Shown: positions 9,490 through 52,552 of the stretch, piece after piece | Position numbering within the stretch: position 1 is the stretch's first letter | Layout of the letters: each line of letters starts with the position of its first letter | Assembly: GCF_040499845.1 (NCBI RefSeq) | Contig: NZ_CP159342.1 | Coordinates: forward strand, 3,286,001-3,350,000 | Direction: 5' to 3' | Length of the DNA stretch: 64,000 bases | Origin: Micromonospora sp. CCTCC AA 2012012 | Lineage (GTDB): Bacteria > Actinomycetota > Actinomycetes > Mycobacteriales > Micromonosporaceae | Made by a program: the position numbers and the translations under genes | Notes under the pieces: model-generated | The model's input: the letters and a program-made list of their open reading frames with translations, nothing else | Database searches by the model: none | Told to the model about the DNA's origin: nothing

Positions 9490-9569
9490 CCCCCACCGCC
9501 CGGGGCGTGCTAGAAACAACTCTCAGGGTCGACCACGCCCCCGTCACCTGACGACGCGAAGGGCACCCG

Positions 9570-10916
9570 ATGACCCAGTCCCCCACCGAGCCGCGTTCCG
9601 GCTGGTCCCCCTGGACGGTGCACGGCGACGGCCGCTCGATCCGGCCGGGCGACGTGGTGCACCCCGCCGAACGGCTCTCCTGGCCGCGTACGGTCGGCGT
9701 CGGCGTGCAGCACGTGGTGGCGATGTTCGGCGCCACCTTCACCGTGCCGCTGATCACCGGCTTCCCGCCGGCCACCACCCTCTTCTTCTCCGGGCTGGGC
9801 ACCCTGCTCTTCCTGCTGATCACCGGCAACCGGCTGCCGTCGTACCTCGGCTCGTCGTTCGCCTTCATCGCGCCGGTGCTGGCCGCGAAGGCCGGCGGCG
9901 ACATCGGCCCGGCGCTCGGTGGCATCGTGGTGGCCGGCGCGGTGCTGGCCCTGGTCGGCGTCGCGGTGCAGCTCGCCGGGGCGCGCTGGATCGACGCGCT
10001 GATGCCCCCGGTGGTGACCGGCGCGATCGTCGCCCTGATCGGCCTCAACCTCGCACCGGTCGCCTGGGACGGCGGCGGCAGCGGCACCGGGGTCAAGGCG
10101 CAGCCGCTGATCGCGGTGGTCACCCTGGCGGCGATCCTGCTCACCACGGTCTTCTTCCGGGGCTTCCTGGCGCGGCTGTCCATCCTGCTCGGCGTGGTGG
10201 TCGGCTGGCTGCTCGCCGCGCTCCTCGGCGACCTGGACCCGAAGGCGGTCACCGGGCTGAAGCAGGCCGCCTGGGTCGGACTGCCCGAGTTCCACGCACC
10301 CAGCTTCAGCCTCCGCGCGGTGGTGCTGGTCATCCCGGTGATCCTGGTGCTGGTCGCGGAGAACGCCGGACACGTCAAGGCGGTGGCCGCGATGACCGGC
10401 CGCAACCTGGACCGGCAGCTGGGCCGGGCGTTCCTCGGCGACGGCGTCGCCACCGTGCTCGCCGGCTCCGGCGGCGGCTCCGGCACCACCACGTACGCGG
10501 AGAACATCGGCGTGATGGCGGCGACCCGGGTCTATTCCACGGCCGCGTACTGGGTGGCGGGGGTGGCCGCGGTGCTGCTCGGGCTCAGCCCGAAGTTCGG
10601 CGCGCTGATCCTCACCGTGCCCGCCGGGGTGCTGGGTGGCGCGACCACCGCGCTGTACGGCCTGATCGCCGTCCTGGGCGCCCGGATCTGGATCGAGAAC
10701 CGGGTCGACTTCCACGACCCGGTCAACCTGATGACCGCCGCCGTCGCGCTGATCATCGGCGCGGCGAACTACACGCTGACCGTCGGCGACCTCTCGTTCA
10801 ACGGCATCGCCCTCGGCACCGCCGCCGCCCTGGTGATCCACCACGGCATGCGCCTGGTGGCCCGCCTCCGCGGCACCACCCCCGACTCCCGCCGGGGCCC
10901 CGAGCCCGAACTCTGA
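9570..10916 (+). CDS. Uracil/xanthine permease (nucleobase:cation symporter-2 family)
   Basis: A 448-residue polytopic membrane protein with about 12-14 hydrophobic helices. Family motifs include QHVVAMFGATFTVPLITG near the N terminus, the central GLNLAPVAWDGGG, and the signature VLVAENAGHVKAVAAMTG with a conserved Glu-Asn, followed by SGGGSGTTTYAENIGVMAAT. It most likely imports uracil or a purine base with protons. Residue differences that separate uracil from xanthine carriers cannot be resolved by eye. The ATG follows GCGAAGGGCACCCG, giving a usable ribosome binding site. A strong hairpin terminator follows the stop. Confidence 0.9.
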   Translation: MTQSPTEPRSGWSPWTVHGDGRSIRPGDVVHPAERLSWPRTVGVGVQHVVAMFGATFTVPLITGFPPATTLFFSGLGTLLFLLITGNRLPSYLGSSFAFIAPVLAAKAGGDIGPALGGIVVAGAVLALVGVAVQLAGARWIDALMPPVVTGAIVALIGLNLAPVAWDGGGSGTGVKAQPLIAVVTLAAILLTTVFFRGFLARLSILLGVVVGWLLAALLGDLDPKAVTGLKQAAWVGLPEFHAPSFSLRAVVLVIPVILVLVAENAGHVKAVAAMTGRNLDRQLGRAFLGDGVATVLAGSGGGSGTTTYAENIGVMAATRVYSTAAYWVAGVAAVLLGLSPKFGALILTVPAGVLGGATTALYGLIAVLGARIWIENRVDFHDPVNLMTAAVALIIGAANYTLTVGDLSFNGIALGTAAALVIHHGMRLVARLRGTTPDSRRGPEPEL

Positions 10917-10921
10917 CCCCG

Positions 10922-10957
10922 CCGAGGGGCCGGCGGCGGGTGCCGGCGGCCCCTCGG
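10922..10957. terminator. Bidirectional hairpin terminator between permease and parC
   Basis: CCGAGGGGCC (10922-10931) and GGCCCCTCGG (10948-10957) form a perfect 10-bp stem, with further partial pairing in the loop. It lies between two convergent stops. Confidence 0.8.
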
Positions 10958-10967
10958 GGGCGGTGCG

Positions 10968-13457
10968 TCAGTCGCGTTCGACCTGGTGGCCGACGACGGT
11001 GGGGCCGAGCATGACGGCGAAGCCGGAGCCGTCGCGGCGGGGATCCGCCGGGGGCAGCTCCACCGGGTCGCCGGTGGCCGTGGCACCCACCGGGCGGGGA
11101 CCGATCCAGCCGACCGCCAGGTCCGTCTCGCCCTTGAGGAACCGCTGGGCGCGCACCCCGCCGGTCGCCCGCCCCTTCGCCGGGTACGACCCGAACGGCG
11201 TCACCTTCACCGTCGCCCCGGTCGAGGTGACCACCATCGGCTCACCGCGCCCGGGGTCGTCGGTGCGGATCGCGCCGAAGAAGACCACCCGGGCCCCGGC
11301 CGTCAGGTTGATGCCGGCCATTCCGCCACCCTTGACGCCCTGCGGGCGGACCAGGGACGCGGCGAAGCGCAGCAGCGCCGCCTCGGAGGAGATGAAGGCG
11401 AGGGTCTCGGTGCCGTCGGTGAGCCAGGTCGCCCCGACCACCTCGTCCCCCTCCCGCAGGGAGATCACCTCGAACTCGTCGGACCGGACCGGCCACTCCG
11501 GCGCGCAGACCTTCACCACACCCTGCCGGGTGCCGAGCGCCAGACCCGGCGAGCCCTCGGCCGAGGACCCGAGCGGCGCGAGGCCGACCACCGTCTCGCC
11601 CGGCTCCAGCGGCACCAGCTCGGCGGCGGACATGCCGCCGCGCAGCGACACGGTGCCGGACTGCTCGGGCAGCACCGGCAGCGGCAGCACGTCGATCTTG
11701 AACGCCCGGCCGGCGCTGGTCACCAGGAGCACCCGGCCGCGCGCCGTGGAGTGGACGAGCGCGCGTACGGCGTCGTGCTTGACCCGACCGCTGCGCCGCC
11801 GCCCCTCGGCGGCCTCCTCCGACTCGGCCGCGGTCCGGGCCACCAGCCCGGTCGCCGACAGCAGCACCTGGCACGGGTCGTCGGCGACCTCCAGCGGACC
11901 GGCCGGGACGGAGGCGGCGAGGACCTCCTTGAGGTCACCGTCGACCAGCGTGGTGCGGCGGGGTGCGGCGAACTGCTTGACCACGGCGGCCAGCTCGTCG
12001 GAGACCAGCTTCCGGAGCACCGTCGGGTCGTCGAGGATGGCGGAGAGTTCGGCGATCTCGCCGCGCAGCTTCTCCTGCTCGGCCTCCAGCTCGATCCGGT
12101 CGTACTTGGTGAGCCGGCGCAGCGGGGTGTCCAGGATGTAGGTGGCCTGGATGTCCGAGAGCTTGAACTTCTGCATCAGGCCGGTCTTGGCGTCCTGCGC
12201 GTCCTCGCTGGCCCGGATCAGCCGGACCACCTTGTCGATGTCGAGCAGGGCGATCAGCAGGCCGTCGACCAGGTGCAGCCGCTCCTGGCGCTTGCGACGG
12301 CGGTAGGAGGTGCGCCGGGTCACCACCTCGTAGCGGTGGGCGAGGAAGACCTCCAGCAGCGCCTTGAGCCCCAGGGTCTGCGGCTGGCCGTCGACCAGGA
12401 CCAGGTTGTTGACGCCGAAGGACTGCTCCAGCGGGGTCAGCCGGTAGAGGTCGGCCAGCAGCGCCTGCGGGTTGACCCCGACCTTGCACTCGACCACCAG
12501 CCGGGTGCCGTTCTCCCGGTCGGTGAGGTCCTTCACGTCGGCGATGCCGACCAGGCGCTTGGTCTTGTTGACCTCGTTGGTGATCGCCGCGATGACCTTC
12601 TCCGCGCCGACACCGTAGGGCAGTTCGGTGACGGTGATCGCCTGCCGACCGCGGCTGCCCTCCAGCGGGCCGATCTCGACCCGGCCGCGCATCCGCACCA
12701 CGCCGCGTCCCGTCTCGTACGCCCGGCGCACCTCGTCCAGGCCGAGCAGCAGCCCACCGGTGGGCAGGTCGGGGCCGGGGACGAACTCCATCAGCTTGTC
12801 CAGGTCGGCGTCCGGGTGGTTGATCAGCCAGCGGGCGGCCTGGACGACCTCGCCGAGGTTGTGCGGGATCATGTTGGTGGCCATCCCGACGGCGATCCCG
12901 GAGGCGCCGTTGACCAGCAGGTTGGGGAAGGCGGCCGGCAACACGGTGGGCTGGGTCAGCGAGCCGTCGTAGTTGGGCTCGACGTCGACCGTCTCCTCGC
13001 CCAGCTCGCCGACGAGCAGCATCGCCTCGCGGGACATCCGGGCCTCGGTGTAACGCGCCGCGGCCGGTCCGTCGTCGGGGCTGCCGAAGTTGCCGTGCCC
13101 GTCGATGAGCGGGGCGTTGAGCGAGAAGTCCTGGGCGAGCCGGACCATCGCGTCATAGATCGCCGCGTCGCCGTGCGGATGGTATTTACCCATCACGTCG
13201 CCGACGATCCGGGCGGACTTCACGTGGCCCCGGTCGGGTCGGTGGCCCTGCTCGTACATCGACCAGAGGATGCGCCGGTGCACCGGCTTGAGGCCGTCCC
13301 GGGCGTCGGGCAGGGCGCGGGAGTGGATGACCGAGAACGCGTATTCCAGGTAGGAGTCGGAGACCTCGGTGACCAGCGGGTTGTCGAAGACCCGGGCGCC
13401 GGCCTGGTCGAAGGCGGACAGGTCCGCCTTGGCGCGGTCTTCCTTACGGCGTGCCAT
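10968..13457 (-). CDS. parC: DNA topoisomerase IV subunit A (type IIA topoisomerase)
   Basis: An 829-residue GyrA/ParC-family protein. The N-terminal breakage-reunion domain has SYLEYAFSVIHSRALPDARD, DGLKPVHRRIL, GKYHPHGD and the catalytic Tyr136 in AAARYTEARMS. A C-terminal beta-pinwheel region follows, roughly from residue 500, with degenerate blades. The canonical GyrA box (QRRGGKG) is not seen, which favours topoisomerase IV over gyrase. It decatenates and relaxes daughter chromosomes together with ParE, whose gene lies 32 bp upstream on the same strand. Position 98, equivalent to E. coli GyrA Ser83, is Ala; Asp102 keeps the acidic residue of the quinolone pocket. Confidence 0.92.
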   Translation of the reverse strand: MARRKEDRAKADLSAFDQAGARVFDNPLVTEVSDSYLEYAFSVIHSRALPDARDGLKPVHRRILWSMYEQGHRPDRGHVKSARIVGDVMGKYHPHGDAAIYDAMVRLAQDFSLNAPLIDGHGNFGSPDDGPAAARYTEARMSREAMLLVGELGEETVDVEPNYDGSLTQPTVLPAAFPNLLVNGASGIAVGMATNMIPHNLGEVVQAARWLINHPDADLDKLMEFVPGPDLPTGGLLLGLDEVRRAYETGRGVVRMRGRVEIGPLEGSRGRQAITVTELPYGVGAEKVIAAITNEVNKTKRLVGIADVKDLTDRENGTRLVVECKVGVNPQALLADLYRLTPLEQSFGVNNLVLVDGQPQTLGLKALLEVFLAHRYEVVTRRTSYRRRKRQERLHLVDGLLIALLDIDKVVRLIRASEDAQDAKTGLMQKFKLSDIQATYILDTPLRRLTKYDRIELEAEQEKLRGEIAELSAILDDPTVLRKLVSDELAAVVKQFAAPRRTTLVDGDLKEVLAASVPAGPLEVADDPCQVLLSATGLVARTAAESEEAAEGRRRSGRVKHDAVRALVHSTARGRVLLVTSAGRAFKIDVLPLPVLPEQSGTVSLRGGMSAAELVPLEPGETVVGLAPLGSSAEGSPGLALGTRQGVVKVCAPEWPVRSDEFEVISLREGDEVVGATWLTDGTETLAFISSEAALLRFAASLVRPQGVKGGGMAGINLTAGARVVFFGAIRTDDPGRGEPMVVTSTGATVKVTPFGSYPAKGRATGGVRAQRFLKGETDLAVGWIGPRPVGATATGDPVELPPADPRRDGSGFAVMLGPTVVGHQVERD

Positions 13458-44086: not shown

Positions 44087-44845
44087 ATGACCCCGCGGCG
44101 TCGACGTCTGGCGGTCGCCTTCCGCCTGGCGATCGTGATCAGTGTGCTGGCCGGCATCGTGCTCACCGCGCTCGGCCCGGCCACGGTGACCGGACTGCTG
44201 CCGTACTTCACCATCCAGAGCAACGTCGCGGTGGGCCTCTTCGCCGGGTACGCCGGCTGGCGCGCCTGGCAGGACCGGCCCGACCCGCCGTCGGCGCTCA
44301 AGGGCGCGGTGACCCTCTACATCACCATCACCGGCGTGGTCTACCACCTGGTGCTGGCCAACCCGGCCAGCCCGTTCGCGATGGTCCAGCCGCACCGGGC
44401 GCTGGGCGAGGCGCTGGGCAACCAGTTCCTGCACACCGTCGTGCCGCTGCTGGCCGTCGCGGACTGGGCGCTGTTCGACCAGCGCGGCCGGCTGCGCCCC
44501 CGGTACGCGGCCTGGTGGCTGGCGTTCCCGCTGGCGTACCTGGGGTTCGCGCTGGTGCGCGGGCTGATCGTGCACCGCTACCCGTACCCGTTCATCGACG
44601 CCGGGCAGCTCGGCTACGACGGCGTCGGGGTCAGCTCGCTCTTCTTCGCGTTCGCGTTCTGGCTCCTCGGTCTGCTCTTCGTCGGCGTCGACCGCGGCCT
44701 GTCCCGGGGCGCCCGGCGGCGCGCGGCGACCGCCGGGCGGACCGCCCCGGACGGGGAGGTCACGCCCGGCGGGCAGGTCACGCCCGGCGGGTCGCTCGAC
44801 GCGGCCGGGCCCGATCGCGGCGCGGCTCAGTCGGCCCGGAAGTAG
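44087..44845 (+). CDS. Pr6Pr-family membrane protein
   Basis: A 252-residue protein with six predicted transmembrane segments. It has the Pr6Pr pattern: an early TVTGLLPYFTIQSNVAVGLF, LYITITGVVYHLVLANP, NQFLHTVVPLLAVADWALFD, AWWLAFPLAYLGFALVRG and YPFIDAGQLGYDGV. The family is of unknown function. The C-terminal 50 residues are cytoplasmic and contain a repeated VTPGGQVTPGGS motif. Its 3' end overlaps the convergent PII-like gene by 19 bp, so no terminator separates them. Confidence 0.88.
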   Translation: MTPRRRRLAVAFRLAIVISVLAGIVLTALGPATVTGLLPYFTIQSNVAVGLFAGYAGWRAWQDRPDPPSALKGAVTLYITITGVVYHLVLANPASPFAMVQPHRALGEALGNQFLHTVVPLLAVADWALFDQRGRLRPRYAAWWLAFPLAYLGFALVRGLIVHRYPYPFIDAGQLGYDGVGVSSLFFAFAFWLLGLLFVGVDRGLSRGARRRAATAGRTAPDGEVTPGGQVTPGGSLDAAGPDRGAAQSARK

Positions 44846-45156
44846 TCCGGCCGGCTGACCCAGGTCTCGCCGACGAACATCACCCCGGGACGCTGGTCCA
44901 GCAGCGTGCGCAGCCCGGTTACCACCGGCGCCGCCCGGTCCGGCGGCAGGACGGTGATCAGCAGCACCAGCCCGGCCCGCTCGTTGAACAGCAGCCGCCC
45001 CTCGTGGTTGCCGTGGTGGCCGAAGCCGGACACCCCGGAGAGGCTGGTCCAGCCGCTGACGCCGGCCGCGTGCAGCAGGTCCCGCACCGCCTCGACGTCG
45101 TCGCCGCGGACCACGATCTCCACCTTGACCATCCGGGTCAGACCCAGCTCGTTCAT
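44827..45156 (-). CDS. PII-like regulatory protein of the DAB locus
   Basis: A 109-residue protein with a PII/GlnB-like ferredoxin fold: it starts LTRMVKVEIVVRGDDVEAVRDLLHAAGVSGWTSL, continues with a glycine-rich T-loop region (GVSGFGHHGNHEGRLLF), and ends with LVLLITVLPPDRAAPVVTGL. The classical T-loop Tyr uridylylation site is not seen, so it is a PII-like rather than a GlnB/GlnK protein. Such genes often adjoin DabA/DabB or SbtA carbon transporters and sense adenine nucleotides or bicarbonate. It lies 38 bp downstream of the DabB-DabA fusion gene and is preceded by GGGAG. Role in gating that transporter is inferred. Confidence 0.85.
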   Translation of the reverse strand: MNELGLTRMVKVEIVVRGDDVEAVRDLLHAAGVSGWTSLSGVSGFGHHGNHEGRLLFNERAGLVLLITVLPPDRAAPVVTGLRTLLDQRPGVMFVGETWVSRPDYFRAD

Positions 45157-45194
45157 GACACGCTCCCAGTTTCGGTTGGACAGGACGGGACGAC

Positions 45195-48100
45195 TCAGCT
45201 CGACGGGACGAGGGTGGGACGGGCTTCCCCGGCCGGTACGACGGGCGCGGCCGGCACCGGGGTCGGCGGGAGTTCCCGCCAGCCACCGCGGGTCCGCTGC
45301 CACCAGCCGCCGTCGGTCGGGTCGAGGGCGATCAGGTGGAGCCAGCCGCCGTCGGTGAGGTCCCGCAGCGCCGGGTTGCGGTCCAGGACGGCGTCGACGA
45401 GCGGGCGGGGCGCCCGGACCAGGGCGAGCAGCCGCAGCGGCTCGTGCACCAGCTCCCGCCCGTCGCTCACGGACTGCCGGGGCAGGCCGGTACGCAGGTC
45501 GCCACCGGCGCCGGAGAGCACCCCGATGCCGTCGCCCAGCACGGTGTGCACCGTCTTGGTGCCCGCGCCGAACCGCTCGGGGTCGACGCTGGAGAAGTAG
45601 TACTGGAGGTTGATCCACTCGGCCACCACCAGGGGACCCGTCATGATCGTCTCCAGGGCCACGCCGGCCGGGTCGGCCGACCAGTCGTACGAGTGCAGGA
45701 AGGTCCGGCAGCCCAGGTCCCGGCCGACGGTGAGGTCCCGGGGCGCGGCGATGAACGCGGCGTTGCCGGCGAGCGCCCACTCCGGACGGACCTGCGCCCA
45801 GTCCACCGACCGCCCGCCGACCCGGTCGGTGGCGGGCCGGTCCGGCAGCCGCGCGGCCCGCTCGGCGCGCAGCCGCCGTCCCGCCTCGGCGAGGTGCCCG
45901 ACGAGCCGCCCGAGGGGCTCCGCGTGGCCGGCCGGCACCGGGTCGAGGATCCGCACCTCGTCGGTGACCGTGTCGTGCTCCCCGGCGACGAAGCGCGTCC
46001 CGGCGGGCACGTCGATGCCCCGCCCGGCCAGCCCCGCCCGGACCGCCGGGTCGTTCAGCAGCGCCGCGGCCAGCCGCGCGCTCACCCCGCCCCGGTTGCC
46101 GCCGCAGGCGCCGCAGTCCAGCGCGGCGGCGTACGGGTTGTTGGCGCTGGTCGCGCCGTGCCCGCAGAGCAGCACCAGCGGGGCGAAGCCGGCGGTGAGG
46201 CCCATCGTGCGCAGGGTCGCCTCCGCGTAGTAGACCCGCTCGTCGAGCTCCAACGCCTGATCCAGCTCGGGCGCACCGACCGCCGGGTCCTCCGGGCGAC
46301 CGGCCAGCCATCGGGGAGCGGCGGCGCGCAGCAGCAGCCCGGCGGCGGCCAGCACCCCGGCGACCTCGACGAAGACGAACGCGCCCACCGGATCACCCTT
46401 CGCCCCCGCGTACGCCCGGCGCCAGCCCTGCCGGGTGCGGCGCCGGTCGGCCCGGTCGCCGTCGGCCGGCTCGGCGACGGTGGCCACCGGGCGCATCAGC
46501 ACCGGGCAGCGGTCGCGGCCCTCGCTCGCGCCGTCCGCGACGGTGCGGACCGGCAGGCCGAAGAAGCCGGCGAAGCCGAGGGTCCGCACCGGCGCGACGG
46601 CCTCCAGGTGCCGGCGCAGCCCTTCGGAGCGCACGTCGATGCAGAAGACCGCCTGGGCCGTCGGCGCGGCCTCGACCGGTGCCGCCGTCGTCGGCCGGTC
46701 GAGCTGGTGGCGCAGCCCCCGACGGTAGGCGTGTTCGGCGGCGACCAGCCAGATCTCGGACTGCCGGTGCGGTGGCAGGGCGTCGAGGGCGGCCCGCAGG
46801 GCGGTCACCGACCCGGGCGGCAGCGCGTCGAGCCGGTCGGCGTCGAGATCGAGCAGCCGGGCCAGCCGGGCCAGCGGCACGGGGTCGACGAGCGGGGTCG
46901 CCCCGGCGCGGTACGCCGTGGCGGTCGCCGCCCGTACCGCGGGCAGCGTGCCCGGCACGTCGAGCCGGCGGGCCGCGACGGCCGCACCGAGCGCCAGCTC
47001 GTACGCGAGCCGGACGGCGAGCAGCTCCACCGGGGTGAGCGGGGGACGGTCGCCGGGGTGGGTGGCGCGCCAGCGGGCGTACCCGGCCCAACCGGGCAGC
47101 CGGGCGAACGACCGGCCCAGGTATTCCGCCCACTCGGACTCCGGCACGTCGAGGGCGCGCAGCAGGGCGGCCACGGCGCGTTCCGGCGCGGACGGCAGCG
47201 CGGCGACCAGGGTGGCGAAGCCGGCGACGCCGTGCCGTACCGGGCCGGGGTCGGTGCCGGCCACGTCCCGCCAGCGCGGCCAGCAGCCCGCCGCCGGGTC
47301 GCCGGGGGCCGGCCAGCGGGCCTGCGCCCGCCCGCAGTGCGCGGCCAGCCAGTCGGCCACCAGGTCGTCGACGGTCGCGGCGACCCGGGTGCCGAGTGCG
47401 TCGTCCAGCAGCTCGGCGAGGGTCCGCCCGTCGGCCGCGTCGGAGCGGGACTCGACCGGGCCGAGGCCCGCCGTCAGCGCGCGGGTGGCGGCGGCGAGCA
47501 GGGCCGGTCCGGGCACGGGTCCGTCGTGCGGGCCGTGCCGCAGCACCAGCCGGTGCAGCTCGGCCGGGTCCAGCAGCCGCTCCCCCAGCACCACCGCCGG
47601 CCCGGCGGGCAGCCCCGCGTCGGCCAGCGCGGCGGTCAGGTCGGCGTCGCTGATCGCGCCGGTCGCGTACCGGGCGCGGTAGTGCTCCGGCGGCAGGTGG
47701 GTGGTGGCGCCGGTGACGGCGCGCAGCCGGGTCGTGGCGGCCGGGAAGGGCTCCCGCTCCAGCCCGGCGAGGGGGTTGACCGCGACGAAGGTGTCCACCG
47801 GCCAGGCCGGTCCGACCAGGTCGGTCGCGGCGGCGACCGCGGCGGCGGCGCGTACCCCGTCGGCCCGGTCCACGACGGGCACCCGGGGCGTGGGCACCGA
47901 ACGGCGGGCGGGCCGGGGCGCGACGCCGTCCCGCCAGGCCCACCACCAGAGCCGGTCGATCCGGTGCCGGGGCGCCAGCCGGACCAGCAGCGCCACGCCC
48001 GCCAGCAGGACGGCGGTGACGGCGAGGCCGGCGGGGTGGACCGCGGCGTCCAGCCCGAGCCACCGGTCGGCCAGCGCGCCGAGCAGCAGGTATCCGCCGG

Positions 48101-49385
48101 CCAGCCCGGTCACCGCGGCGGTCAGCCCGAGCGCGGCGCGGACGGGGAGCGCCCGGTCGCGCAGCGCCGCGTCGAGCGCGGCCACCCCGGCGAGCGCGGC
48201 GAGCCCCGCCGCCAGCGGACTGCCGCCGACCGCGACCTCGACCAGGAGCACCGTGGCGACCAGGAGGGCCAGCGCCGGGAGCAGCCGGTGGGCCGGGCGG
48301 GGACCGACCGGCGGCGGGGCCTGGTCGGCGGCCACCCGGGCCTGCACCGCGCCCCCGGCGGAGAGGAAGGCGTACGCCTTGTAGACGCCGTGCCCGACCA
48401 GGTGCAGGGCGGCGAGACCGAAGGCGCCGAGGCCGACCTGGACGAGCATGAAGCCCATCTGCGCCATGGTGGAGCGGGCCAGGGCGCCCTTGACGTCGGT
48501 GCGCACGGCGGCGAAGAGGGTGCCGGCGGCGGCGGTGCCGAGCCCGACCAGCAGGATCGCGGCGGTCACCACGGGCACCGCGACGACCACCGGGGCGAGC
48601 CGGATCAGCAGGAAGCCGGCCACGTTGACCATGCCGGCGTGCAGGAAGGCGCTGACCGGGGTGGGTGCGTAGAGGGTGGTGGGCAGCCAGCGGTGGGCGG
48701 GCAGTTGGGCGGAGCGGACCACGCAGGCGACCAGCAGCAGCAGGCCGACGGTGACGAGCAGCGGGGTCGGCAGCCCGGCCGCGCCGGCCCGGACGGCGGC
48801 CAGGTCGGTGTCGCGCAGCGCGACGGCCAGCAGCGCCACCGCCGCGAGCAGGGCGAGGTCGGCGAGGGCGAAGAGCCGGCGTACGCGGCGGACCGCCGCC
48901 CGGACCCGGGGCTGCTCGCGGTGGTGGCCGATCAGCCCGACCAGGCACCAGCCCGCCAGGGTCCACCCGATCCAGAGCTGGACCAGGCCGGGTGCGGTGG
49001 CCATGACCAGGGTGGCCGCGGTGGCGGCGGCGACCCGGGCCTGGAAGGCGGCGGCGGCCGGCTCCCCGTCCAGGTAGCGGTGCGCGTACCCGGCGACGAC
49101 CGCCGCGATCCCGCAGACCAGCAGCACGAAGAGCGCGCCGAAGCGGTCCACGGTGACGCCCAGGCTGACCGGCACGCCGCCCGGGGTGAGCCGGGCGTAC
49201 GTCTGGTCGACGGCACCGCCGACGGCGACCAGGACGAAGAGCGCCAGGGCCCCGACGGCGGTCGCCGCGAGCAGTCGGGTCACGACGCGGCTGGAGCGCC
49301 GCTGGTCGGTGCCGGTCAGCGGGACGAGTGCGGCCACCGCCGGCAGGGCGAGGACCAACGGAACGAGTGGATCGGACAGGACCAT
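45195..49385 (-). CDS. DabB-DabA fusion: putative energy-coupled inorganic-carbon transporter
   Basis: A 1396-residue protein. Residues about 1-475 form a NuoL/MrpA-like (DabB) membrane part with some 12 helices, including LPAHRWLPTTLYAPTPVSAFLHAG and a conserved Lys region TDVKGALARSTMAQMG. After a basic linker, residues about 510-1396 match DabA (DUF2309/UPF0753), with FVAVNPLAGLE. Zinc ligands are Cys915 and Asp917 (CIDVRSEG), His1076 (CGHGATSANNPYAAALDCG) and Cys1091. The C-x-D pair and the 15-residue His-Cys spacing equal those of Halothiobacillus DabA. DabA/DabB normally are separate proteins that couple ion flow to CO2 hydration and bicarbonate accumulation. I chose ATG 49385, which follows GAGGAGGTGGTC; an ATG nine codons upstream is weaker. 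Confidence 0.9.
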   Translation of the reverse strand: MVLSDPLVPLVLALPAVAALVPLTGTDQRRSSRVVTRLLAATAVGALALFVLVAVGGAVDQTYARLTPGGVPVSLGVTVDRFGALFVLLVCGIAAVVAGYAHRYLDGEPAAAAFQARVAAATAATLVMATAPGLVQLWIGWTLAGWCLVGLIGHHREQPRVRAAVRRVRRLFALADLALLAAVALLAVALRDTDLAAVRAGAAGLPTPLLVTVGLLLLVACVVRSAQLPAHRWLPTTLYAPTPVSAFLHAGMVNVAGFLLIRLAPVVVAVPVVTAAILLVGLGTAAAGTLFAAVRTDVKGALARSTMAQMGFMLVQVGLGAFGLAALHLVGHGVYKAYAFLSAGGAVQARVAADQAPPPVGPRPAHRLLPALALLVATVLLVEVAVGGSPLAAGLAALAGVAALDAALRDRALPVRAALGLTAAVTGLAGGYLLLGALADRWLGLDAAVHPAGLAVTAVLLAGVALLVRLAPRHRIDRLWWWAWRDGVAPRPARRSVPTPRVPVVDRADGVRAAAAVAAATDLVGPAWPVDTFVAVNPLAGLEREPFPAATTRLRAVTGATTHLPPEHYRARYATGAISDADLTAALADAGLPAGPAVVLGERLLDPAELHRLVLRHGPHDGPVPGPALLAAATRALTAGLGPVESRSDAADGRTLAELLDDALGTRVAATVDDLVADWLAAHCGRAQARWPAPGDPAAGCWPRWRDVAGTDPGPVRHGVAGFATLVAALPSAPERAVAALLRALDVPESEWAEYLGRSFARLPGWAGYARWRATHPGDRPPLTPVELLAVRLAYELALGAAVAARRLDVPGTLPAVRAATATAYRAGATPLVDPVPLARLARLLDLDADRLDALPPGSVTALRAALDALPPHRQSEIWLVAAEHAYRRGLRHQLDRPTTAAPVEAAPTAQAVFCIDVRSEGLRRHLEAVAPVRTLGFAGFFGLPVRTVADGASEGRDRCPVLMRPVATVAEPADGDRADRRRTRQGWRRAYAGAKGDPVGAFVFVEVAGVLAAAGLLLRAAAPRWLAGRPEDPAVGAPELDQALELDERVYYAEATLRTMGLTAGFAPLVLLCGHGATSANNPYAAALDCGACGGNRGGVSARLAAALLNDPAVRAGLAGRGIDVPAGTRFVAGEHDTVTDEVRILDPVPAGHAEPLGRLVGHLAEAGRRLRAERAARLPDRPATDRVGGRSVDWAQVRPEWALAGNAAFIAAPRDLTVGRDLGCRTFLHSYDWSADPAGVALETIMTGPLVVAEWINLQYYFSSVDPERFGAGTKTVHTVLGDGIGVLSGAGGDLRTGLPRQSVSDGRELVHEPLRLLALVRAPRPLVDAVLDRNPALRDLTDGGWLHLIALDPTDGGWWQRTRGGWRELPPTPVPAAPVVPAGEARPTLVPSS

Positions 49386-49398
49386 GACCACCTCCTCT

Positions 49399-49452
49399 GT
49401 TGTACGAACCATAGAACACGTTTTTCATTTCGTGTATTGTGGCTCGCACAAC
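49399..49452. promoter_or_regulatory. Two-tier palindromic operator between the DAB fusion and the carbonic-anhydrase-like gene
   Basis: GTTGTACGAACC (49399-49410) is matched at 10 of 12 positions by the reverse complement of 49441-49452. Inside it, ACACG (49416-49420) pairs with CGTGT (49431-49435) about the same axis at 49425.5. Likely -10 boxes flank the axis: TATGGT (49413-49408, minus strand) for the DAB gene and TATTGT (49435-49440, plus strand) for the carbonic-anhydrase-like gene. A single dimeric or tetrameric regulator could control both. The centre is much richer in A/T than the surroundings. Confidence 0.65.
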
Positions 49453-49468
49453 AGTCGAGGAGGCGACA

Positions 49469-50014
49469 ATGCCGAACCCCGGAAACCCGTCGGACGGCCC
49501 ACTCCACCCGCCGCTGGCGGCGCTGGCCGCACTCCGGGCCGGTCACCGCCGTTACCTCGCCGGTACGGCGACCGGATCACCCGGCCCCGCACCCACCGTC
49601 GCCGTGTTCAGCTGCGCCGACCCGCAGCCGGCCGCCGAGACGCTCTTCCCGGGGGTGGATCTCTACGTGGTCCGCACCGCCGGGCTGGCCGTCGGCCCGA
49701 GCGTGCTGGGCAGCCTGGAGTACGCCGTCGACCGGCTCGGCGTACCCCTGGTGGTGGTGCTCGGACACGACCGCTGCGGCGCGGCGGCCGGTGCCGGCGA
49801 CGGCGCGGTACGACGGGCCGCCGCCCTGCTGCTGCAGCGCTCGACGCTGCTGGCGCGGGCCGTCACCGCCGGCCACTGCGCGGTGGTCGGCATGTCCTGG
49901 CGGGCCGAGCTGGGCCGGGTCCGGCCGGTCCCCCGGGTCGCCCCGGCCCCGGCGGCCCGGCTGCGCTCCCGGGCCCGCCCGCCCGCCGCCCGGCCGGCCG
50001 GTGCCCCCCGCTGA
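49469..50014 (+). CDS. Beta-carbonic-anhydrase homologue lacking the dyad arginine
   Basis: A 181-residue protein of the beta-carbonic-anhydrase fold. Zinc ligands are visible as Cys49 in VFSCADPQ and His100 and Cys103 in VLGHDRCGA. Asp51 of the catalytic Asp-Arg dyad is kept, but the Arg of the C-x-D-x-R motif is Gln53. The usual RNAGG loop reads RTAGL. The C-terminal 45 residues are Arg/Pro/Ala-rich and replace the end of the standard fold, which is normally near 200-220 residues. It is divergent from the DAB fusion gene across 83 bp. It may hydrate CO2 weakly or serve as a non-catalytic partner. The ATG follows GAGGAGGCGACA. Confidence 0.82.
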   Translation: MPNPGNPSDGPLHPPLAALAALRAGHRRYLAGTATGSPGPAPTVAVFSCADPQPAAETLFPGVDLYVVRTAGLAVGPSVLGSLEYAVDRLGVPLVVVLGHDRCGAAAGAGDGAVRRAAALLLQRSTLLARAVTAGHCAVVGMSWRAELGRVRPVPRVAPAPAARLRSRARPPAARPAGAPR

Positions 50015-50040: not shown

Positions 50041-52086
50041 TCAGCGGATCCGCGCGCCGGTGACCCGGTGCTCACGGCCGTAGGCGTCGGTCAGCCCCCA
50101 CCGGCCCGGGATGTCGAGCAGGTCCAACCACCCGAACCCGTCGGGCAGCGCCGGGCGCACCAGCAGGTTCTCGCCCACCGGATACAGCCCCAACGTGGTG
50201 GCGAGCAGCATCATCAGGGCCCCCGCCGCCCAGGACTGCGGGCGGCCCGCCGCCGGCAGCTGGACCGGGTACCGGGTGAGGTCGCGGGGATAGCCGGCGA
50301 TCACCTCGGGGACCGAGCCGCCGAGCGTCTCCGCCATGGCGAAGATGCCGGCCACGATCCGGGCCGCCTCCTCGTCGTGGCCGTAGCGGCGCAGCCCCGC
50401 CGCGATCAGCGCGTTGTCGGACGGCCAGACCCCGCCCAGGTGCGCGCCGACCGGGTTGTAGGGCAACTGCCCCTCGGCGAAGGTGCGCACCCCCCAGCCG
50501 GTGAACATCCGCGGCCCCAGCAGGTGCCCGGCGATCTGCGCCGACCGCTCCGGCGGGACGATCCCGCTCCACAGCAGATGGCCGATGTTGGAGGTGAGCG
50601 CGTCGACCGGTCGACCGTCCGGCCCCAACGCGAACGCGTAGTAGCCGCGCTGCGGCAACCAGAAGTCCCGGTTGAACCGTTCCTTCAGGGCCGCCGCCTC
50701 GCGCCTGAGGCGGTCGGCGTACCCGGGATCGTCCCAGATGTCGCGGGCGAGCCGCGCGCCCCGCATCTTCGCGTCGTAGGCGTAGCCCTGAAGCTCGCAG
50801 GTGGCCCGGGGGAAGGCGGGCTGCCGGCCGTACTGGTCCACCACCGCGTCCGGTGAGTTCTTCCAGCACTGGTTGAGCAGCCCGCGCGAACCACGCCGCC
50901 GGTAGCGCAGGTAGCCGTCGCCGGTGCTGTCGCCGTACTCGTCGAGCCAGTCCAGCGCCATCCGGGCCGGGTGCCGCAGCTCCCGCACCAGCTCCACGTC
51001 GCCGGACCAGCGCTCGTACTCGTCGAGCAGGATCACGAAGAGCGGCGTGGTGTCGGCCGCCCCGTAGTAGAGCGAGGTGGGCTGCTCGCCGAAGGCGGCC
51101 GACTCGCCGTACCGCGTCTCGGCCAGGATCTTGCCGGGCTCCTCGTCGTGGTCGTCGTCCAGCCGGCCCCCCTGGCCGTTGGCGAGCAGCCGCAGTGTCG
51201 GCGCCGCCAGCTCGGGGGTGAACGCCAGGGTCTCCAGGCAGGTGATCAGGCTGTCCCGGCCGTAGAGGGCCATCGCCCACGGCATCCCACCCACCGGCAC
51301 CCGGTCGGTGTACGCCAGCGGCGCGTACCGCAGCGCGGCGAGGTCGGTCAGCGCCGCGAGGTCCGCGTCGGTCAGCGGCTGCCGCTCGGCGACCAGCGTC
51401 GGCGCCCGCTCCAGCCACTGCCGCAGGTCCTCCCGCATGTCGTCGCGGACCTGCCGCTGGTGCGACTCCAGGCTGGCCCGCAGGTCCCGGGCCCCCTCGC
51501 CACGGATGGTCATCGCCACGTGCAGGTTGGTCGTCCAGGTCCCGCGCGGCGCCACGGTGATCCGGAACGTCATGCCGCCCGGGTCGACCTGCGCCGCGAC
51601 GGTGCTGGAGACGATGGCCTCCCGGGTGAACCGCTCCCGCTCGTGGCAGAGCCGGAGCCGGTTCTCCTCGACCCGCGCGGCGACCCGGCGCGGGCGCGGG
51701 CCCTTGATCTCGGAGGTGTCGGCGAAGTCGCTGCCGATCTCCATCCGGACGGTGAACTCGACGGCCTCGGCCGAGTGGTTGAGCAGGGTGATCCGCTCGT
51801 TGAAGCTGTCGTCGATCGAGCGGTGGCGGATCACCGAGACGTCGGCGTCGATGTAGTGGCTGGCGGTGCCGGGCACCAGGAAGAAGCGGGTCTCGAAGTA
51901 GGTCATGTCGTCCCGGGACAGCGGACTCAGCGGCTGCCCGTCGATCGTCAGGACCCAGTGGGACAGGAACCGGGTGTCGAAGGAGAAGAGACCCATCGGT
52001 GCGTGCGGGTCCGGTCGCATGTCGCCGGTCGCGTCGCTCACCGCGAACGTGTTGCCCGCCATGACATGGACCCGTTCCTGCTTCAT
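50041..52086 (-). CDS. Glycogen-debranching-type (amylo-alpha-1,6-glucosidase-like) protein
   Basis: A 681-residue protein. The N-terminal GDE_N domain has GNTFAVSDATGDM, GLFSFDTRFLSHW and FNERITLLNHSAEAVEFTV. A catalytic (alpha/alpha)6 barrel follows from about residue 290, with AMALYGRDSLITCLE, EPGKILAETRYGE, NQCWKNSPDAV, FWLPQRGYYAFAL and HLGGVWPSDNALIAAG. Homologues are commonly annotated as debranching enzymes, though some may trim other alpha-glucans. The start at 52086 overlaps the stop of the upstream SCP2 gene by one base; a later ATG at MAGNTF is possible. No signal peptide, so it is cytoplasmic. Confidence 0.88.
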   Translation of the reverse strand: MKQERVHVMAGNTFAVSDATGDMRPDPHAPMGLFSFDTRFLSHWVLTIDGQPLSPLSRDDMTYFETRFFLVPGTASHYIDADVSVIRHRSIDDSFNERITLLNHSAEAVEFTVRMEIGSDFADTSEIKGPRPRRVAARVEENRLRLCHERERFTREAIVSSTVAAQVDPGGMTFRITVAPRGTWTTNLHVAMTIRGEGARDLRASLESHQRQVRDDMREDLRQWLERAPTLVAERQPLTDADLAALTDLAALRYAPLAYTDRVPVGGMPWAMALYGRDSLITCLETLAFTPELAAPTLRLLANGQGGRLDDDHDEEPGKILAETRYGESAAFGEQPTSLYYGAADTTPLFVILLDEYERWSGDVELVRELRHPARMALDWLDEYGDSTGDGYLRYRRRGSRGLLNQCWKNSPDAVVDQYGRQPAFPRATCELQGYAYDAKMRGARLARDIWDDPGYADRLRREAAALKERFNRDFWLPQRGYYAFALGPDGRPVDALTSNIGHLLWSGIVPPERSAQIAGHLLGPRMFTGWGVRTFAEGQLPYNPVGAHLGGVWPSDNALIAAGLRRYGHDEEAARIVAGIFAMAETLGGSVPEVIAGYPRDLTRYPVQLPAAGRPQSWAAGALMMLLATTLGLYPVGENLLVRPALPDGFGWLDLLDIPGRWGLTDAYGREHRVTGARIR

Positions 52087-52460
52087 CAGCGCCCGTCCGA
52101 GGAGTCGGTGACGTCCCTGGGGTGCCGCGCCCCGGGCCGGCCGGGGAAGATCCGGCGCAGGGTCATCAGCAGCTTGATGTCGCCCTGCACCGTCACGTCG
52201 TTGCGCAGCAGCGCCGTACCGATGTGGCTCTCCCCGGCGGCGAGCCGGTCGAAGACCTCCCGGTCGGCGCGGACCACCAGGTCGGCGTGCTCGGCGGAGC
52301 GGCTCACCTCGACGTGCTGCCGGTCGAGGGTGAGATACCAGTGCTCGGTCCGGCCGTCCTCGCTGATGTCCAACCGCAGCGTGCCCGAGGTGGTCTCCGG
52401 CAGGTCCGGGTGCCGACCGGCCACCGACCGCTCCAGGTAGCGTCCCGCTGACGTGACCAT
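52086..52460 (-). CDS. SCP2-sterol-transfer-domain protein
   Basis: A 124-residue protein with a single SCP2-like fold: GTLRLDISEDGRTEHWYLTLD, VSRSAEHADLVVRADREVFDRLAAGE, and the closing VTVQGDIKLLMTLRRIFPGR. Members bind hydrophobic ligands; ligand unknown. It is directly upstream of, and coupled to, the debranching-enzyme gene (stop and start share a base), and GAGGTGGG precedes the ATG. I chose ATG 52460; a GTG 22 codons earlier extends into low-complexity sequence. Confidence 0.8.
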   Translation of the reverse strand: MVTSAGRYLERSVAGRHPDLPETTSGTLRLDISEDGRTEHWYLTLDRQHVEVSRSAEHADLVVRADREVFDRLAAGESHIGTALLRNDVTVQGDIKLLMTLRRIFPGRPGARHPRDVTDSSDGR

Positions 52461-52552
52461 CCCACCTCGTCCCCCCACGCGTGGCTGCCGCCCGGTCCGG
52501 GTTCCCGCAAAAGGGGTGATCACCACTCACCCGATCCGGGTGAGCGGCACGG

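Follow-up and report, generated by a model that had tools for sequence, protein, structure and literature searches.

We analysed a stretch of 64,000 nucleotides from Micromonospora sp. CCTCC AA 2012012 (contig NZ_CP159342.1, positions 3,286,001 to 3,350,000; hereafter the window), in which a predicted DAB-type inorganic-carbon pump encoded as one polypeptide is accompanied by a PII-like gene, a divergently oriented beta-carbonic-anhydrase-like (CA-like) gene and, somewhat further away, a gene for a DUF6671 protein. What appears to be new here is the company that the pump keeps, i.e., a CA-like protein that lacks the catalytic Arg and tracks the pump, together with DUF6671, and not the fusion itself. 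The original prediction, made from the letters of the window, had recognized the pump and its two immediate neighbours but overlooked the absence of the Arg, the tracking of DAB and the DUF6671 gene. No description of this pattern of partner genes (CA-like and DUF6671) was found in the open-access literature searched. The boldest reading, which is tentative and on balance doubtful, is that actinobacterial DABs twice independently took on an Arg-less beta-CA pseudoenzyme, probably from the host CA lineage, which would silence or monitor the resident CA during pumping and thereby end a futile cycle of pumped HCO3- and leaking CO2, and that DUF6671 would be an accessory of DAB and SbtA, two unrelated bicarbonate-supply systems. 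The puzzle concerned is how a heterotroph with CAs of its own profits from a bicarbonate pump; a DAB-tracking, Arg-less CA-like protein offers a directly testable answer, and DUF6671 would gain its first functional setting.

The CA-like partner and its tracking of the pump

The CA-like gene (49469-50014, plus strand, 181 amino acids) starts 83 bases from the DAB gene on the opposite strand, and its product matches PF00484 (E 6e-15), in agreement with the divergent CA homologue that had been predicted beside the pump. Canonical beta-CAs carry the motif C-x-D-x-R. In the window, the zinc ligands of the CA-like protein (C49, H100, and C103) are kept and the catalytic dyad is not, its Arg being replaced by Gln. 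The closest solved protein in both sequence and fold is the beta-CA Rv3588c (2a5v, 1ym3), from which the CA-like protein differs by this exchange and by a missing middle stretch. Its AlphaFold2 model (predicted local distance difference test, pLDDT, 87.5) has Rv3588c as its best match in the Protein Data Bank (PDB), with a template modelling (TM) score of 0.67-0.70 by query and a root-mean-square deviation of 4.1-4.6.

We then compared the distribution of DAB and the CA-like gene in 160 genomes of Micromonospora and 148 genomes of a mycobacterial genus (that of genome G067, whose genus name was inferred from its place among Mycobacterium and Mycolicibacterium in the DabA tree). DabA was present in 15 of the 160 Micromonospora genomes, and the CA-like gene was found in all 15 DAB-positive and in none of the 145 DAB-negative genomes (Fisher p 2e-21, a value that treats the genomes as independent, which they are not). 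The accepted matches scored at least 128 bits, against at most 75 bits in genomes without DAB. A second CA-like copy (106 bits) was seen in genome G017, paired with DUF6671 (locus L304, contig C5, 7237-8882) in a 20-kb stretch with no DAB match. Within the mycobacterial genus, DabA occurred in 32/148 genomes and the CA-like gene in 30 of these 32 and in 0/116 DAB-negative genomes; matches scored at least 239 bits and the next best 198, and the sequences of at least three of the genomes (G067, G308, and G391) were themselves in the query alignment. Of the two exceptions, G964 has a contig that ends 150 bases past the DabA match, and G907 has DabA in pieces, its genome yielding no CA-like gene and its 20-kb stretch no PII. 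Within the stretches examined around the 30 mycobacterial CA-like loci, PII was present in 30 and DabA in 29; the CA-like gene follows PII in the same orientation.

The PII-like neighbour in the window (44827-45156, minus strand, 109 amino acids) was confirmed by PF00543 (E 2e-18) and begins 38 bases after the stop codon of the DAB gene, on the same strand. Its closest solved chains, 5d4n and 5d4l, are related to it over residues 1-107 of 109 (E 1e-19); we take them to be CPII (Wheatley 2016), a bicarbonate-regulated PII-like protein. What is said here on the presence of PII comes from the DAB neighbourhoods examined. Within the 83 bases between the DAB and CA-like genes, a divergent promoter region (49388-49463, no strand) contains an imperfect inverted repeat of 33 nt (76%). 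All 15 Micromonospora rows show a recognisable core of the type ACACGATT-n(3-4)-AATTCGTGTATCGTG, although several deviate from it, the window and L254 on one side and L257, L261, and L264 on the other. This arrangement suggests that DAB and the CA-like gene may be under joint control in Micromonospora.

The dyad Arg is absent in all 15 Micromonospora CA-like copies and in 47 of 51 DAB-linked CA-like rows (36 mycobacterial or related and 15 Micromonospora), versus 0/43 canonical rows, and all three zinc ligands are kept in 46/51. That every DAB-linked CA-like protein lacks the Arg was true for the first 16 copies and failed in the larger set, where the Arg was present in five mycobacterial copies (4/51 rows and a plasmid copy of M. 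aubagnense outside the 51). Among the remoter homologues from the database (P0131-P0198), taken irrespective of gene neighbourhood, 67/68 carry the Arg; the contig of the sole Arg-less one (P0155) and that of the PII-like match P0278 are both 69,974 long.

In a quick IQ-TREE tree of 90 rows, the Micromonospora CA-like proteins formed one group (support 100), which falls with the canonical CAs of the same genus and two database proteins (support 93, not starred), and the mycobacterial CA-like proteins (support 99) stood elsewhere. Forcing both sets into one clade was rejected by the approximately unbiased (AU) test (p 0.032), so that a single origin of the family is disfavoured on this quick tree, which suggests two separate recruitments of a CA-like gene beside DAB. 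Four mycobacterial loci (L076, L311, L312, and L313) have a canonical CA gene at most about 5 kb from DAB, on its dabB side, from which the CA-like copy may have come. Locus L313 (genome G865) also holds two CA-like genes in tandem, with DUF6671 after them (9558-12381), the second copy having lost a zinc Cys and carrying the Arg.

When the window was compared with its nearest relative, the Micromonospora genome G050, the ratio of nonsynonymous to synonymous substitutions (dN/dS) was lowest in PII (0.08), followed by a canonical CA (0.17), the glycogen-debranching-like gene next to the CA-like gene (0.37) and the CA-like gene itself (0.43). In nine other pairs of CA-like genes it was 0.13-0.64, which makes values below 1 in 10/10 pairs, although these estimates are rough (Nei-Gojobori on high-GC genes, with frames read stop to stop in locus pairs). 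Values below 1 disfavour a decaying relic, and the CA-like gene therefore seems to be retained, under looser constraint than PII or the canonical CA.

The predicted single-chain pump

The DAB gene is one open frame on the minus strand (45195-49385, 1396 amino acids, with the ATG at 49385 preceded by GAGGAGG), which can also be read from an upstream ATG (45195-49412, 1405 amino acids). As had been proposed, the encoded chain consists of a NuoL-like DabB half followed by a complete DabA half. On the 1405-residue frame, Pfam places Proton_antipo_N at residues 77-123 and Proton_antipo_M at 141-405 (together 48198-49184, minus strand), followed by DabA (PF10070) at 527-1358 (45339-47834, minus strand), which covers model positions 2-747 of 747 with 805 bits. 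The host genome is one contig of 6.73 Mb in which the fusion gene is the only DabA match, and the nearest named proteins in the protein database are from Micromonospora. By its domains and residues, the 1396-residue protein is very probably a single-chain DAB, i.e., a carbonic anhydrase that works in one direction and is driven by the membrane potential.

Among solved chains, DabA2 of 9rd0 (DAB2 of Halothiobacillus neapolitanus) comes closest with 449 bits, and DabB2 of the same structure ranks third (132 bits, level with NuoL-type subunits). DAB2, a proton-motive-force-driven vectorial carbonic anhydrase, resembles the fusion in both halves, the zinc site, the dyad, the finger Glu and the proton path, with identities of 49% over 477 aligned positions for DabA and 35% over 335 for DabB; it is made of two proteins, whereas the Micromonospora system is one chain. 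We mapped the positions named in a 2026 cryo-EM study of DAB2 (PMC13144422, cited throughout from the portions consulted) onto the fusion, where 16/18 DabA2 positions are identical. The zinc ligands C351, H524, and C539 and the dyad D353-R355 are identical in 5/5, and so are Leu658 (at the site of the usual transition-state Gln) and the polar-tunnel gates R653, W656, and L629 (4/4). The predicted residues C915, D917, H1076, and C1091 (1396 numbering) proved exact and align with C351, D353, H524, and C539; in the 1405 numbering the zinc site is C924, H1085, and C1100 and the dyad D926-R928. The finger Glu444 corresponds to E1016 (1405 numbering) or E1007 (1396 numbering), within a hydrophobic segment at 1000-1018 (1396 numbering). 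The DabB2 proton path (S256, H260, K310, S316, H339, H343, and K347), a cytoplasmic half-channel of the NuoL type, is identical in 7/7 positions, which in the fusion are S254, H258, K308, S314, H337, H341, and K345 (1405 numbering).

Several observations weigh against this assignment. The hydrophobic tunnel (F375, A376, F378, H684, V696, I700, A703, and P704) is identical in 6/8 positions, with V696 changed to Ala and A703 to Gly. Three of the four DAB2 ion-pair positions differ (I151 to T, R182 to A, and K235 to R); the fusion has T151, A182, D185, and R233, of which D185 is the sole identical one. A structure prediction, which had been proposed as a check, was made with AlphaFold2 for the DabA half (residues 500-1405, mean pLDDT 87.7), and a PDB fold search with it (library to 8 April 2026) returned no match at E 0.001 and did not list 9RD0 among its matches. 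On the other side, the confidence of this model and its best match, the beta-CA CsoSCA (probability 0.98, with E only 0.014, TM 0.22 by query), speak for the assignment; the remaining matches look like chance. The changed ion pairs would also fit a Na+/HCO3- symporter in place of a proton-driven CO2 hydrase, a view argued, as reported in PMC13144422, for MpsAB of Staphylococcus, the homologous two-part uptake system for dissolved inorganic carbon (DIC) in a heterotroph. MpsAB differs from the Micromonospora fusion in consisting of two proteins and in its argued sodium coupling, and we consider the symporter improbable for the single chain, in which the zinc site, dyad, gates and finger Glu are kept as compared with DAB2; a plain symporter would presumably not need them.

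The chance that a frameshift or an assembly error created the fusion is negligible, since neither shows in the window and DabB and DabA lie in a single frame in 14 of the 15 DabA-bearing Micromonospora genomes (in 13 the frame is open and complete for both, and in G993 it is cut inside DabA by a contig end), G050 being the one relative with a broken frame. In G050 (L072, 9801-14092) the DAB gene is spread over three frames and DUF6671 over two, with the PII and CA-like frames open, which reflects either decay or assembly errors.

The statement in the original prediction that known DABs are two separate subunits did not stand, and the fusion as a novelty was rejected. PMC13144422 describes an engineered DabB-DabA fusion of DAB2 that mirrors the natural single-subunit system of Acidimicrobium ferrooxidans, for which it cites Schmid 2021; the authors fused the subunits to keep the complex intact for cryo-EM, and the fusion had no significant effect on growth yield. 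A natural single chain may thus serve as a handy construct where those authors had to make one. Genome G558, which we take as A. ferrooxidans, carries a fused DAB (its single-subunit DAC) with the same DabB-DabA order in one chain as in Micromonospora and a DabA half 36% identical to that of the Micromonospora fusion; no PII, CA-like or DUF6671 gene was found in its 19.5-kb locus (L086). The words "fused" and "PII" are absent from the text of the DIC toolkit review PMC10880623.

A listing of natural fusions, as had been recommended, found fused proteins under actinomycete, Acidimicrobiales, Woeseiaceae, and other names, and fused DAB also in two Alphaproteobacteria. In a draw of genomes from the class, DabA was present in 31/394; for the 30 with a locus, the count was 12 fused and 18 split, and one of the split loci has no DabB in its stretch. 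The draw from the phylum gave DabA in 23/396 genomes, with 2 fused and 21 counted as split, some of these being fragments. Among the named loci, which are the best 80 of 567 confirmed DabA loci and have flanks of differing length, four are fused (Jiella mangrovi, Sphingomonas psychrolutea, Svornostia abyssi, and Micromonospora mirobrigensis). The mycobacterial genus has none in 30 loci from its 32 genomes with DabA. On a FastTree of 130 DabA rows (20 fused and 110 split), the fused/split label needs at least six changes, a rough count from FastTree only with two long rows, and A. ferrooxidans and Micromonospora fall in different clades. The fusion therefore looks recurrent and one origin is disfavoured; the Micromonospora fusion is a further case of a known arrangement. 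The tree excludes 10 partial rows (G050 included), 14 second copies of loci already present and eight later-found Micromonospora genomes, and six of its "split" rows (L032, L107, L120, L134, L138, and L156) show no DabB within the stretch, so that some could be cut fusions.

Possible roles of the pump and the CA-like protein

The host is heterotrophic-looking, as predicted, in that PF00016, the model of the RuBisCO large subunit, has no match in its genome. Together with the two full beta-CAs that remain in the genome (C1:4785760-4786206 and C1:204791-205234), this makes it most likely, judging from gene content, that the pump would feed ordinary biosynthetic carboxylases. By analogy with DAB2, protons would move down the membrane potential via DabB and the finger helix, opening the buried site; CO2 would be hydrated at the DabA site and HCO3- released to the cytoplasm for these carboxylases. 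The PII-like protein may sense nucleotide or bicarbonate, as does the solved protein nearest to it, and adjust the pump accordingly. According to the portion of PMC8552792 consulted, a bicarbonate pump and a CA together make little sense because the CA turns transported bicarbonate into escaping CO2, and a pump beside an active CA should therefore be wasteful. The Arg-less CA-like protein might restrain the resident true CA, e.g., as an inactive dimer partner, so that pumped HCO3- would not be returned to escaping CO2. Such a restrainer is our best guess among the alternatives for the CA-like protein, though a guess that could easily fail. Against it stand the loss of zinc ligands in 5/51 DAB-linked copies, the five Arg-bearing mycobacterial copies, and the internal stretch missing from the Micromonospora copies, which may touch the dimer interface. 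Moreover, co-occurrence and the shared promoter region do not separate an inhibitor from a sensor or a pump subunit.

We give not far from an even chance to the CA-like protein being a CO2/HCO3- sensor or a pump-binding regulatory subunit and not an inhibitor of the resident CA. Co-occurrence with DAB and the shared promoter region favour this reading, as do the retention of zinc ligands in most rows despite loss of the dyad Arg from the majority and the position of the mycobacterial gene behind PII in the same orientation. Against it, the apparent descent of the Micromonospora protein from the genus's own CA (on the grouping with support 93) fits a CA-directed role at least equally. It is unlikely that the CA-like protein is a still working carbonic anhydrase. 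Most rows retain the zinc ligands and have an acidic residue in the place of the Asp, and some mycobacterial copies have the Arg, but the loss of the Arg from nearly all DAB-linked rows and from no canonical one argues otherwise; alanine exchanges at the zinc ligands and dyad of DAB2 impair growth (PMC13144422), and two complete CAs are already in the genome.

DUF6671 and the mobility of the gene set

The DUF6671 gene of the window (PF20376; 52553-53395, minus strand) scores 115.9 bits against a Pfam gathering cut-off of 23.8. DUF6671 was found in 10/160 Micromonospora genomes, all ten DAB-positive, and directly behind the CA-like gene in eight of them; two genes lie between in the window and G050. 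In the window these are a glycogen-debranching-like and an SCP2 gene (50041-52526), a pair that is also present in G050 and missing from this place in five other Micromonospora loci. Eight Cys residues near the end of the protein are conserved in at least 90% of 36 rows, as in zinc ribbons, and no paper naming DUF6671 was found in the open-access literature searched.

Beyond Micromonospora, DUF6671 lies near DabA in 16 of the 80 named loci (six Pseudomonadota, six Actinomycetota, and one each of Nitrospirota, Bacillota, Cyanobacteriota, and Melainabacteria). Ten of the 12 plasmid records that carry DUF6671 have it near DabA or SbtA: DabA is within a few kilobases in seven (H1, H2, H3, H5, H7, H8, and H11; for H3 and H7 as judged from coordinates), and an SbtA-type bicarbonate transporter adjoins it in three, two of these from one Arthrobacter strain. 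The other two have neither within 7-8 kb (in an incomplete gene table). DabA itself is on 123 plasmid records, most of them outside these 12.

That the CA-like and DUF6671 genes are hitchhikers on a moving DAB cassette, with no role of their own, seems distinctly unlikely to us. DAB is patchy in Micromonospora (15/160), and the gene set is present on a mobilizable 23.7-kb plasmid of M. aubagnense (NZ_CP122998.1, L314), and can therefore move. This plasmid carries dabB, dabA, a "transcriptional regulator" of PII size, the CA-like gene and a divergent DUF6671 gene. Standing against mere carriage are the dN/dS values of the CA-like gene in all ten pairs, its apparently double origin beside DAB, the placement of DUF6671 near DabA or SbtA in several phyla, and G907, where DabA in pieces coincides with the lack of the CA-like gene in the genome and of PII in the 20-kb stretch.

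In the two plasmid records with neither DabA nor SbtA nearby, from Methylocystis rosea (L315) and Pseudomonas hygromyciniae (L319), DUF6671 stands beside the dihydroorotase gene pyrC, and TerC-family genes were seen near DUF6671 in 4 of the 10 plasmid regions opened.

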